DNA of 39,373 nucleotides from positions 1 through 39,373 of the forward strand of contig CAMHIV010000003.1 of assembly GCA_946185185.1 (NCBI GenBank), given 5' to 3'. The notes beneath the pieces were generated by a model. The model was not told the DNA's origin. It saw nothing but the letters and a program-made list of their open reading frames with translations, and ran no database searches. Of the stretch, positions 18,590-23,615 are shown one piece after another. Made by a program: the position numbers and the translations under genes. Each line of letters begins with the position of its first letter. The stretch's first letter is position 1. The DNA is from an uncultured Treponema sp. (GTDB lineage Bacteria > Spirochaetota > Spirochaetia > Treponematales > Treponemataceae).

Positions 18590-18648
18590 AAGGTCGAATG
18601 TCGGGTTTTATAATTTTTATGGATTTTCAAAACCCGTCCTTCGATCTT
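18590..18648. repeat. Imperfect 20-nt inverted repeat in a divergent intergenic region
   Basis: AAGGTCGAATGTCGGGTTTT (18590-18609) versus reverse complement of 18629-18648 AAGATCGAAGGACGGGTTTT, 17/20 identical. Confidence 0.7.
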
Positions 18649-18708
18649 ATAGTTTATTGCTATAACTTAGCATAAAAAACTTGTATTAGAACAAAAAACT
18701 GGAATCTT

Positions 18709-18818
18709 ATATAACCTACATATCGGCGGTTGAACGGGTGGCGAAAGCTGCTGCATAACTTGCTGCCGGAATATTTAATTAGGTTCCCTAAAGGTGAGGG
18801 GAACAGGTGAGGTTATAT
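18709..18818 (+). promoter_or_regulatory. Structured leader upstream of metQ (candidate cis-regulatory RNA)
   Basis: 9-bp closing helix ATATAACCT/AGGTTATAT; internal stem CGGCGGT/GCTGCCG containing a GAAA-capped hairpin; GTTCCCT/GGGGAAC hairpin; SD overlaps the 3' closing strand. Confidence 0.55.
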
Positions 18819-18819
18819 T

Positions 18820-19650
18820 ATGAAGAAAAATGTTTTTGCGAAAATTGGTGGTTTGGCAATAGGTCTTGCATTGTTTTCAGGATTTTTTACTTCTTGTGGA
18901 AAATCTAGTGAAAATCTTATTCGCGTTGGTGTATGTGCAGGTCCATACGGAGATATGTTTGTAGAAGCTATTCAGCCTGAACTTGAAAAGAAAGGGTATA
19001 AGGTAAAGATTGTTGAATTTTCTGACTATGTTCAGCCAAACAATGCTCTTGCAGAAAAAGAAATTGATGTAAATGCATTTCAGCATTCAACATATCTTAA
19101 AAAGTTCTCAAAAGATCACAACTTGGATTTGCAGTATTTGACAGAAATTCCAACTGCTGCAATGGCAATCTTTTCTGCTAAATACGAATCGATTGCAGCT
19201 TTGCCAGAAGGAAGCGTAATTGCAATTCCAAACGATGATACAAACCTTGCACGCGCAATTCGTGTTCTTGCTCAGACTGGTGCCGTTAAGATTGATCCAA
19301 AAATCGATGCAAGTAAAGCAACTGTTAAGGATATTGCAGTAAACGACAAGCACTTTACATTCAAAGAAGTAAATGCAGAAATCCTTCCAAGCGTTTTGGA
19401 CAGTGTTGGAGCTGCTATTATAAACGGAAACTACGCAATGAGCGCAGGTCTTAAACTTAGCGATGCAGTTTACAATGAACAGCTTCAGGCTGGTTACTTC
19501 AATGTAATCGCTGTTCGCACAGAAGATGTAGAAAAGGATTTCTCTAAGGAAATCTACAATATTGTACACTCTGACGGATTCAGAAAAGTAATTGAAAATC
19601 CAAAAGGTCAGTATGTAGCATTTGGACGTCCTGTAGACTATAACAAATAA
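18820..19650 (+). CDS. metQ: Methionine ABC transporter substrate-binding lipoprotein (NlpA family)
   Basis: Lipobox GFFTSC; GPYGDMF..., DVNAFQHSTYLKKF, ALPEGSVIAIPNDDTNLARAIRVL. Confidence 0.95.
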   Translation: MKKNVFAKIGGLAIGLALFSGFFTSCGKSSENLIRVGVCAGPYGDMFVEAIQPELEKKGYKVKIVEFSDYVQPNNALAEKEIDVNAFQHSTYLKKFSKDHNLDLQYLTEIPTAAMAIFSAKYESIAALPEGSVIAIPNDDTNLARAIRVLAQTGAVKIDPKIDASKATVKDIAVNDKHFTFKEVNAEILPSVLDSVGAAIINGNYAMSAGLKLSDAVYNEQLQAGYFNVIAVRTEDVEKDFSKEIYNIVHSDGFRKVIENPKGQYVAFGRPVDYNK

Positions 19651-19731: not shown

Positions 19732-20739
19732 ATGATTCAGTTCAATAATGTTAGCGTTAGCTTTAAGGATGGAAAGAAACCTGTAAATGCTGTTAAAAAT
19801 GTAACTTTTGCAATTGAAGAAAAGGACATTTTCGGCATTGCGGGTGGGAGTGGTGCTGGTAAAAGTACTCTTTTGAGGACAATAAACCAGCTTCAGAAGA
19901 TTACAGATGGTGATGTAATTGTAAATGGAAAAGCCGTAAAAGAGCTTAAACATAAGGAACTTCATGATTTGCGCCGCAATGTGGGCATGATTTTCCAGCA
20001 TTTTAATCTGGCAGAAAGCAAGACTGTTTATGAAAATATAGCGTTTAGTCTTGAAGATGCAGGATGGAAAAAAGAAGATATCGAAAAGAGAGTTGCAGAA
20101 CTCCTCGAATTCGTAAAGATTTCTGAAAAAAGGGATGTATACCCGGCAAAGCTTTCCGGCGGGCAGAAACAGCGTGTAGCAATTGCCAGAGCTCTTGCAA
20201 ATAATACTAAGATTCTTTTGTGTGACGAGCCTACCAGTGCTCTTGATGCAGAAACCACTAATTCAGTATTAAAACTTCTGCGCGAAGTAAATGAAAAACT
20301 GGGTGTTACTATTGTAATTATTACTCACGAACTTGATGTAATTAAATCAATCTGTAACAAAGTTGCAGTAATGCGTAACGGTGAAGTTGTTGAGCTTGGA
20401 GATGTATACGAAGTATTTACAAATCCAAAGCATGAATTTACTAAGGAACTTTTGAGCCACGGTCAGAACTTTAAGCTGCCGGAAGAAGTAGTTCATAATG
20501 TAAAAGGTGACATTTATAAACTTACATATAAAGGCGATGGTGCTACAGAAAGCATCCTTTCGCAGGTTACAGCTGAGCATAAAGTGCAGTTCAATATCCT
20601 TCATGGAAAAATTGAATACATAAGCTCAAGACCATTGGGAATTCTTTTTGTTAATTTCAGCGGTGATGAAAAGTCTGTTCAGTCTGTTATTGATGAACTG
20701 AAAACAAAGATTTTTAAGCTTGAAAAATACGAACACTAA
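19732..20739 (+). CDS. metN: Methionine ABC transporter ATP-binding protein with C-terminal NIL-like domain
   Basis: Walker [37 protein letters not shown]-terminal NIL-like ~80 aa. Confidence 0.95.
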   Translation: MIQFNNVSVSFKDGKKPVNAVKNVTFAIEEKDIFGIAGGSGAGKSTLLRTINQLQKITDGDVIVNGKAVKELKHKELHDLRRNVGMIFQHFNLAESKTVYENIAFSLEDAGWKKEDIEKRVAELLEFVKISEKRDVYPAKLSGGQKQRVAIARALANNTKILLCDEPTSALDAETTNSVLKLLREVNEKLGVTIVIITHELDVIKSICNKVAVMRNGEVVELGDVYEVFTNPKHEFTKELLSHGQNFKLPEEVVHNVKGDIYKLTYKGDGATESILSQVTAEHKVQFNILHGKIEYISSRPLGILFVNFSGDEKSVQSVIDELKTKIFKLEKYEH

Positions 20740-20766: not shown

Positions 20767-21429
20767 ATGTTACAGAGCATATTTAAGGTAAAAGGCGATA
20801 TTCTTGCTTCGTTGGGGCAGACATTCTATATGGTAGTGATTTCGGTTGTAATCGGAATTATTTTTGGAACATTAATCGGGCTTGTTCTGTATACGACAGA
20901 AAATCCTCTCTTTGTGCGCAAGAGAATAGTAAACAGAATTGTTGGAGCCATTATTAATGTGGTTCAGTCGGTTCCGTTTTTGATTCTGATGGTTCTTCTT
21001 CTTCCACTTTCTAAGCTGGTTGTAGGGACAAAAATCGGTTCAAAAGCTGTTCTTGTACCCCTTAGTATCGCTGCAGTTGCATTTTTTGCACGTCTTAGCG
21101 AAGCCAGTTTTACGGATGTTTCAAAGGGAGTTATAGAAGCATTTATTTCTACAGGTGCAAGTAAGGCCAAGGTTATTGTTAAGATTCTTATTCCGGAGGC
21201 TTTGCCATCTTTGGTAAGAAATATTACAGTAACAACTGTTGCAATTCTTGGGTTTTCAGCAATGGCAGGACTTGTTGGCGGCGGAGGACTAGGAGATCTT
21301 GCGTACCGTTATGGGTATCAGCGCTATCAGAGCGAAATCATGATTATATGTGTACTTATTTTGATTGTTCTGGTACAGGGCATTCAGGCATTGGGAGAAT
21401 GGGGAGTTAAAAAAGTAAGTAAAAAATAA
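20767..21429 (+). CDS. metI: Methionine ABC transporter permease
   Basis: GLVLYTTENPLF, NVVQSVPFLILMVLLLPLSKLVVGTKIGSKA, GLVGGGGLGDLAYRYGYQRYQSEIM. Confidence 0.95.
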   Translation: MLQSIFKVKGDILASLGQTFYMVVISVVIGIIFGTLIGLVLYTTENPLFVRKRIVNRIVGAIINVVQSVPFLILMVLLLPLSKLVVGTKIGSKAVLVPLSIAAVAFFARLSEASFTDVSKGVIEAFISTGASKAKVIVKILIPEALPSLVRNITVTTVAILGFSAMAGLVGGGGLGDLAYRYGYQRYQSEIMIICVLILIVLVQGIQALGEWGVKKVSKK

Positions 21430-21522: not shown

Positions 21523-23615
21523 ATGATACACATTGGTATAAAAAAGATTGGAACTAAATTAATCCTAGCATTTTCTGCAATCGTTCTTTTTTCCGTATTC
21601 ATGGTTTCGGTACCTATTCTAACAAGACAGATTGCAGCCGTTAAAGAAAACACAAGAATTACTGCGACAGATCAGATGGAATCTGCCCGACTTGCCGTTG
21701 AAACCTTCCTTGCAAAACCTTATTGCTTTGTAAAAGATACTTCCCTTTATGTAAAGCGAGCAAGACTTCAACTTGAACAAACACAAAAAGACTTTGAAAC
21801 CCTTGTAGACGGTGACCCTTCCATAATTTGTCTTTATTACGCAGACGAAGTCCCTATGAACAAAGGAGGACTGTTCTATTCAGGTGATGGCTGGGTTCCA
21901 GATAGTGATTACGATAAGTATTCAAGAGACTGGTTCAAAGATTCGATGAATAAGAAGGGTGTGCTTCTTACAGAACCTTATGTCGATGAAACTACAAAGG
22001 AACTTGTAACAACTGTAAGTACTGCAGTTTATCGTGATAATGGTTCATTTGCTGGTGTTGTAGGCGTTGATATTTTCTTAAAAACTTTGAACTCCCTTGT
22101 AGATGCAATCAAGCTTACAGAAGGTGGAAAATCATATATTCTCGACATGAATGGTTATACCTTACAAATGATGATTTGAGCAAGGTTTGCAGCGCAAATT
22201 TCTTTGAAGATTATTCAATTCTTGCAAATTACAAAAACCGCTTAAACAGTGAAGTATTTGTAGAAACAAATGCAGTTGGCGGTTATTACATTGCTTCTCA
22301 GGTTGTAAGTAAAGATGCCGGTTGGGTTTTAGTTACTGTCGGAAGGTCTGCCGAATTGTTTAAATCTTTGCGTCAGAGCATGGTTTTGATTGCAATTATG
22401 GCAGTTATTACGGTTATAATTTCATTGGGTCTGGCATTTGTTGTTTCTTCCCGAATTGTAAATCCTATTACAATAGTTGATAAAACTATAAATGGAATTG
22501 CAAGTGGTAATGCGGATTTGACCAAACGAATTGAAGTTACCTCGCGAGACGAAATTGGTAGTCTTGTAGGCGGATTTAATAGTTTTGCGGAAAAACTTCA
22601 GTCGATTATCAGTGAGGTAAAAGATTCCAAAGAAGAGCTTAGAGAAGCCGGTGATTTGATGACTTCTAATGCGCAGGACACTGCAGCTTCTATTACCCAA
22701 ATCATTGCAAACATCGAAAGCATGAATTCACAGATTGGAAATCAGTCAAAGAGTGTAGATCAGACAGCAGCGGCCGTAAATGAAATTGCTTCTAACATTG
22801 AATCTTTGGAAAAAATGATTGAAACACAGTCCAGCGGAGTAACACAGGCTTCTGCTGCCGTTGAAGAAATGATTGGAAACATTAGTTCTGTAAACCAGTC
22901 TGTTGAAAAAATGGCAGCATCGTTTAAGGATTTGGAAACAAATACTCAAAGTGGAATTAATAAGCAGCAGGCTGTAGATGAACAGATTAAGAGTATTGAA
23001 CAGCAGTCAAGTATGCTTCAGGAAGCAAATGCTGCGATTTCTTCTATTGCGGAACAGACAAATCTTCTTGCTATGAACGCCGCAATCGAAGCTGCTCATG
23101 CAGGTGAAGCTGGAAAAGGTTTTGCGGTTGTTGCCGATGAAATTCGAAAGCTTTCTGAAACTTCTACACAGCAGTCAAAGACAATTGGTGAACAGTTGAA
23201 TAATATTCAGAATTCGATTGTAACCGTAGTTCAGGCTTCTGCTGATTCAAATCAGGCGTTCTCATCTGTTTCTCAGCAGATCAGTGATACTGATGAACTT
23301 ATTACTCAGATTAAATCTGCTATGCAGGAACAGCAGGAAGGTTCAAAACAGATTACAGATGCACTTCATTGTATGAATGACAGTACTTCCGAAGTACGCA
23401 CTGCTGCTACAGAAATGAACGAAGGTAACAGAATGATTTTGAATGAAGTTACCGCTTTGCAGGAATTTACCCGCGCCATGAAAGGCAGTATGGAAGAAAT
23501 GTCGATTGGTGCCGAAAAGATTAACGAAACTGGAGCTTCTTTAAGTACAATTTCAAGTTCTGTAAAAGATTCAATCGATAAGATTGGCGATCAGATTGAT
23601 CAGTTTAGAGTTTAA
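21523..23615 (+). pseudogene. Methyl-accepting chemotaxis protein (dCache-like sensor + HAMP + MA domain), split by a -1 frameshift near 22160
   Basis: ORF 21523-22179 ends in ...[13 protein letters not shown]; the continuation ...[18 protein letters not shown]... lies in the adjacent frame; MA domain [37 protein letters not shown]. Confidence 0.85.

Follow-up and report, generated by a model that had tools for sequence, protein, structure and literature searches.

The window, the whole stretch of 39,373 nucleotides analysed here from an uncultured Treponema sp. (GCA_946185185.1, contig CAMHIV010000003.1), contains a metQNI operon preceded by a structured leader at 18709-18818. The best NCBIfam matches for the three genes are MetQ, MetN and MetI, with scores under the NCBIfam cut-offs. 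The promoter, leader and genes comprise the following features:

18648..18664, + strand: MET-box-like palindrome TATAGTTTATTGCTATA, where a LysR-type regulator probably binds; a perfect TATAG-N7-CTATA with its centre about 66 nt before the predicted start
18672..18689, + strand: second promoter box ATAAAAAACTTGTATTAG, a probable second regulator contact near -43; conserved in copies from the same genome and in genomes of the genus
18709..18717, + strand: P1 5' strand ATATAACCT, complementary to the ribosome-binding site, with covariation across 19 genes
18710..18715, + strand: -10 hexamer TATAAC, which doubles as the bulk of the P1 5' (anti-SD) strand; located a constant 23 nt downstream of TTGTAT across the promoter class, with or without P1
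18722, + strand: predicted transcription start, an A, 7 nt past TATAAC, placed from promoter geometry
18724..18768, + strand: hairpin H1, made up of P2 (18724-18730/18762-18768) and P3 (18737-18742/18747-18752) with a GAAA loop; from the fold and covariation
18730..18734, + strand: conserved internal-loop strand TTGAA; GGTTGA is identical in 7/7 H1 copies
18754..18762, + strand: conserved internal-loop strand CATAACTTG; ATAACTTGC is identical in 7/7 copies
18783..18804, + strand: hairpin P4 (18783-18789/18798-18804), with an SD-like AAAGGTGA in its loop; from the fold and comparison of copies
18805..18819, + strand: ribosome-binding site and P1 3' strand (AGGTTATAT, 18810-18818)
18820..19650, + strand: metQ, methionine ABC transporter substrate-binding lipoprotein (NlpA lipoprotein; Pfam PF03180, E 4.8e-72)
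19732-20739, after metQ: metN (ABC + NIL)
20767-21429, after metN: metI (MetI-like)

Beyond metI, a methyl-accepting chemotaxis-like protein (21523-23615) is broken into two overlapping open frames (21523-22179 and 22176-23615), each in a different reading frame, by a frameshift or an assembly error. The same genome also has a second, diverged metQNI operon (L170, G000:C60, 400-3087), at which the promoter box is present and the structured leader is absent.

The initial annotation described the leader as a translation-controlling aptamer, and its structural description was borne out. The strands ATATAACCT (18709-18717) and AGGTTATAT (18810-18818) form a perfect 9-bp inverted repeat with 92 nt between them, and the octamer AGGTGAGG does occur at both 18792 and 18805. 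The minimum free energy fold of 18709-18818 returned this closing helix (P1) along with the inner hairpins that had been claimed, namely P2 (CGGCGGT/GCUGCCG), the GAAA-capped P3 and P4 (GUUCCCU/GGGGAAC). Overlap of P1 with the metQ ribosome-binding site was likewise found, as the P1 3' strand covers the end of the SD sequence. The energy of the fold was -38.1 kcal/mol compared to -26.2 +/- 3.3 for shuffled sequences (z -3.65), and none of 200 shuffles folded as well. By eye, the leader had also been found to match no SAM-I/II/III, cobalamin, TPP or THF consensus, and no Rfam family reached its gathering score anywhere in the window (SAM, SAH, cobalamin, THF and T-box classes included); when the search was extended to E=10 the leader was still unmatched, and unrelated microRNA and sRNA matches fell only outside it. 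A DNA similarity search of the leader across the genus returned short chance matches only, and a literature search did not find a Treponema metQ riboswitch. The architecture is more than chance, as it recurs at other genes with covariation, and both P1 and H1 covary among related Treponema leaders. The leader is real, conserved and unmatched in Rfam, and the riboswitch label is not established.

We also examined the promoter into which P1 extends. Its elements come in a constant order (TATAG-N7-CTATA, the TTGTATTAG box, a fixed 23-nt gap and TATAAC), and the box that reads ATAAAAAACTTGTATTAG here is, in other genes, half of a palindrome, CTAATACAA-AAC-TTGTATTAG. The pair TTGTAT-23 nt-TATAAC was found in 66 places in 196 genomes of the genus, compared to about 14 for a reversed control. 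Of 58 promoters in the class, 50 have TATAG-N7-CTATA with two mismatches at most (about 5 in a shuffled control), and in nearly all it lies 28-29 nt before the next box. A distal CTATAAC was considered as the -10 element of a second promoter and rejected, since it is half of the MET-box-like palindrome. Both the geometry and the palindrome hold in genes without P1 as well. Because genes lacking both P1 and H1 keep this spacing, TATAAC is most simply a -10 element. Therefore, from the promoter geometry, the normal mRNA is predicted to begin near 18722, about 5 nt past the end of the P1 5' strand; by eye, many members of the class have an A after a pyrimidine at this position. The predicted position comes close to what the initial annotation had named as counting against its own reading, a start after 18717. 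LysR-type activators usually bind near -66. Two LysR-type proteins are encoded in the same genome, and we infer that the regulator of this promoter class is LysR-type.

Genes behind the class promoter make up a sulfur/methionine regulon and encode MetQ, MetN, SsuA-like and SsuB-like proteins and family-3 binding proteins, as well as an O-acetylhomoserine sulfhydrylase-like enzyme, a class I aminotransferase and a 2-oxoacid oxidoreductase, several of these names being given from sequence alone. At L170 (7675-10699), a three-gene 2-oxoacid:ferredoxin oxidoreductase-like cluster with the palindromic box CTAATACAAAACTTGTATTAG seems to be a member of the sulfur regulon, and genes of this type were noted in G158, G005, G131 and G079. 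The porin-like protein of the regulon (L153, 671-1708, minus strand; L188, 1634-2704; L194) was named from its signal peptide-like start and general look, and the L188 copy had no Pfam or NCBIfam match. A second palindrome, CTACT-N5-AGTAGG (e.g. TATAACCTAGTATAATACTAGGTTATA), comes right after TATAAC at L283, L298, L301, L310, L318 and other loci; it overlaps the predicted start in many regulon promoters and has the look of a repressor operator. A similar element is seen in metQ promoters without the first boxes.

The complementarity between the -10 strand and the ribosome-binding site was evaluated in three ways. Over 55 distinct promoters, not selected on P1 beyond the earlier close relatives added to the set, -10 strands taken together paired more strongly with their own ribosome-binding sites than with swapped ones, and 62 of 50,000 shuffles did as well. 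When shuffling was confined within families, using 19 genes of four families, 70 of 50,000 were as good. Column counts over 19 genes found 91.8% of P1 cells paired and both partners altered in 5 of the 9 pairs, and none of 500 shuffles equalled this in pairing and covariation score, although this set was partly chosen for having P1 and its orthologues are not independent, so that the significance is not exact. Pairing of CCT with AGG is trivial from any SD sequence, and the flanking pairs alone are informative. Compensatory changes were found in metQ (AAAUC/GAUUU and AAAC/GUUU), ssuA (AUAUAACCU/AGGUUAUAU, GUAUAACCU/AGGUUAUAC and GUAUAAAC/GUUUAUAU), cystine-type genes (AUAUACC/GGUAUAU) and porins (UUCAC/GUGAG versus UUCAA/UUGAG), such that the covariation spans all four kinds of gene, leaders without H1 included. 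Among the clearest individual examples are TATAAAC/GTTTATA in metQ of G163 and ssuA of G025, TATAAATC/GATTTAT in metQ of G141, TATACC/GGTATA in the cystine-type gene of G104 and GTATAACCT/AGGTTATAC in ssuA of G158. At least nine leaders (three metQ, two ssuA-like and four cystine-type) have P1 with compensatory changes and no H1; because P1 is kept in these leaders, it is more than a helix that closes an H1 aptamer.

The ribosome-binding site might simply be a generic one. AGGTTAT precedes ATG in 42 places in the genome (control, 19), which is common enough, but the inspected genes outside the class have no promoter boxes and this account was rejected; among 30 AGGTTAT places inspected in two genomes, the sequence faced a matching -10 element only in members of the promoter class. 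It is unlikely, though less so than the other alternatives considered below, that the -10 element matches the ribosome-binding site by coincidence, through AT-rich spacers passed down within gene families, with H1 and P4 serving only as a 5' stabiliser or ribosome standby site. In every copy, the start of H1 would be about 2 nt from the predicted 5' end, which fits such a role, the AGG/CCT core is trivially common to SD and operator sequences, and the genes upstream are frequently divergent. However, the permutation and column tests argue against coincidence, as do the several compensatory pairs that lie beyond AGG/CCT.

Leaders of metQ in related Treponema share this layout, and copies of H1 were sought there, then by pattern search and then with covariance models. 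The simple pattern GTTGAA..CATAACTTG gave mostly chance matches, many of them coding, and recovered the second copy in the window's own genome and the ssuA-like copy. Seven full copies were found: at metQ in the window genome, G032 and G158, at the gene for an SsuA-like binding protein in G158, and at the porin-like gene in the window genome, G158 and G055. A second covariance model (R2) run over 274 genomes of the family returned the same seven, with only weak further matches. The motif is thus confined to 4 of the 274 genomes, all in one genus; no further copy was seen in other genera of the family, and two weak matches that were inspected sit in apparently coding sequence. Over the seven copies, 93% of H1 cells (P2 and P3) are paired and 6 of 14 pairs have changed on both sides, a result equalled by none of 500 shuffles, and the internal loop is nearly invariant. 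H1 is a new conserved RNA hairpin, which may be an aptamer or just as well a hairpin of another kind. The P4 stem differs in each copy around an SD-like, purine loop (AAAGGUGA, CAGGAGU, ACGGGUGU, AAGGGAA and CAAGGAGAA among the copies); CsrA was considered for these loops, some of which are GGA-like, whereas the window, G158 metQ and others have GGU or GGG. In G105 metQ and the G092 porin, P2 is kept and the conserved loop lost, the latter leader also retaining P2-P3-P4-like stems. In our preferred reading, H1 and P4 form a structure apart from P1, particular to this clade and located where the normal mRNA begins, perhaps as a stabiliser or protein-binding site.

Within CATAACTTG, the loop segment AUAACUU could pair with the ribosome-binding site AGGUUAU, a possible pseudoknot read from the sequence, and possible roles for H1 are those of 5' stabiliser, protein site or switch operating through this pairing. 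It is improbable, in our estimation, that H1 regulates the normal mRNA in such a way, with the SD sequence freed when the internal loop is bound by a protein, a small RNA or a metabolite. Loop and ribosome-binding site are both invariant in all seven copies, the G055 porin has lost P1 and has a longer match (UAUAACUU/AGGUUAUA), and regulation of this kind would be compatible with a promoter-embedded anti-SD strand. However, because both sides are invariant, the pairing is beyond covariation testing; it is also outside ViennaRNA scoring, and by a rough estimate a 7-bp match with one G-U pair would be expected about 2% of the time.

The aptamer proposal of the initial annotation must be divided. 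A structured leader without an Rfam family, pairing of the SD sequence within P1, covariation and an internal loop that is conserved and recurs all find support; P1 as the switching helix does not, because its 5' strand serves as the -10 hexamer in a class of promoters whose geometry is fixed, some leaders keep P1 but have no H1, and the genes that have H1 belong to one transcription-factor regulon. A new translational riboswitch, in which H1 or a three-way junction would bind a sulfur metabolite (methionine, SAM or cysteine) and the ligand would stabilise P1 to close the SD sequence, accordingly seems doubtful, even though H1 is shared by metQ, ssuA-like and porin genes, its loop is invariant and P2 covaries, P1 folds together with H1 and P4 as a three-way junction, and known families are not matched. 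Besides the origin of the P1 5' strand in the -10 hexamer and the leaders that retain P1 alone, the restriction of H1 to just four genomes and the loss of the loop in two leaders that retain P2 weigh against it, and the transcription-factor regulon already covers these genes and supplies a sensor. More doubtful still is a narrow riboswitch class of rumen Treponema with H1 as its aptamer, sensing a sulfur metabolite and controlling translation of the metQ, ssuA-like and porin genes through pairing of AUAACUU with the ribosome-binding site.

We give about an even chance to the explanation that we prefer, that P1 is a promoter-embedded anti-SD strand that masks the SD sequence only in transcripts begun upstream. 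The -10 hexamer TATAAC with its flank is the reverse complement of the gene's own ribosome-binding site. Transcripts from the regulated promoter, with their predicted start at 18722, would not include the -10 strand and would have a mostly free SD sequence, while those started upstream would carry it, fold P1 over the SD sequence and be poorly translated. Folding of leaders with P1 is consistent with this masking effect: the probability of an unpaired SD sequence was 0-0.3 for RNAs that include the -10 strand and about 0.3-0.95 for RNAs beginning at the predicted start. Masking would be kept on genes for exported proteins (MetQ, SsuA-like and cystine-type binding proteins, and porin), and the arrangement seems closer to proofreading of the start site than to a riboswitch that senses a metabolite. 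However, divergent genes outnumber co-directional ones upstream of promoters with P1 (about 8 vs. 5, taking the longest open frame), and the gene upstream of the metQ promoter in the window runs the opposite way. Read-through from co-directional upstream genes is thus unsupported as the selective reason. In addition, the porins of G092 (L193) and G055 (L194) retain the ribosome-binding site GAGGTTATATG with -10-like sequences TAGAAA/TAGATA that do not match it, and have lost P1. If the promoter-embedded anti-SD strand is correct, bacteria use a promoter's own -10 element as an anti-SD sequence, so that an exported-protein gene is translated only from a correctly started mRNA. An apparent riboswitch closing helix may, as a caution, sit partly within a promoter.

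The leader resembles the translational SAM riboswitches (SAM-II, SAM-III/SMK, SAM-V and SAM-VI) in that an SD sequence is paired in a methionine-related leader. Unlike these, it has no Rfam match, the 5' strand of P1 is inside the promoter, and porin and sulfonate-type genes are included. The promoter resembles those of the streptococcal methionine regulon, in which the MET box TATAGTTTnAAACTATA is bound by the LysR-type regulator MtaR/CmhR (PMC2627894, PMC5359408); TATAG-N7-CTATA has the same spacing and lies upstream of metQ and sulfur genes. In Treponema, however, the box is followed by a second box and by the complementarity between -10 element and ribosome-binding site, and the regulator is a predicted one. 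The likeness for P1 is with phage T4 genes e, soc, 49 and the intron gene I-TevI, where a strand of the late promoter masks the ribosome-binding site in early transcripts (PMC3014915, PMC2988022). In both systems, the 5' strand of a helix is written into the promoter, and this helix masks, or in Treponema is predicted to mask, the ribosome-binding site only in upstream-started transcripts, the T4 late promoter being TATAAATA and the Treponema element TATAAC (PMC3014915, PMC2988022). As at T4 gene e, the predicted masking helix shares its 5' strand with a promoter element (TATAAC, 23 nt from TTGTAT) and the SD-containing helix is kept by compensatory changes. Unlike T4, the Treponema case concerns a regulon on a bacterial chromosome: its activator is predicted to be LysR-type, its genes are several and unrelated, and in one clade the leaders are long and structured. 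If our preferred reading is correct, it would be a chromosomal-regulon case of the logic known from phage T4 late genes, with a clear signature that would allow other genomes to be searched by sequence.
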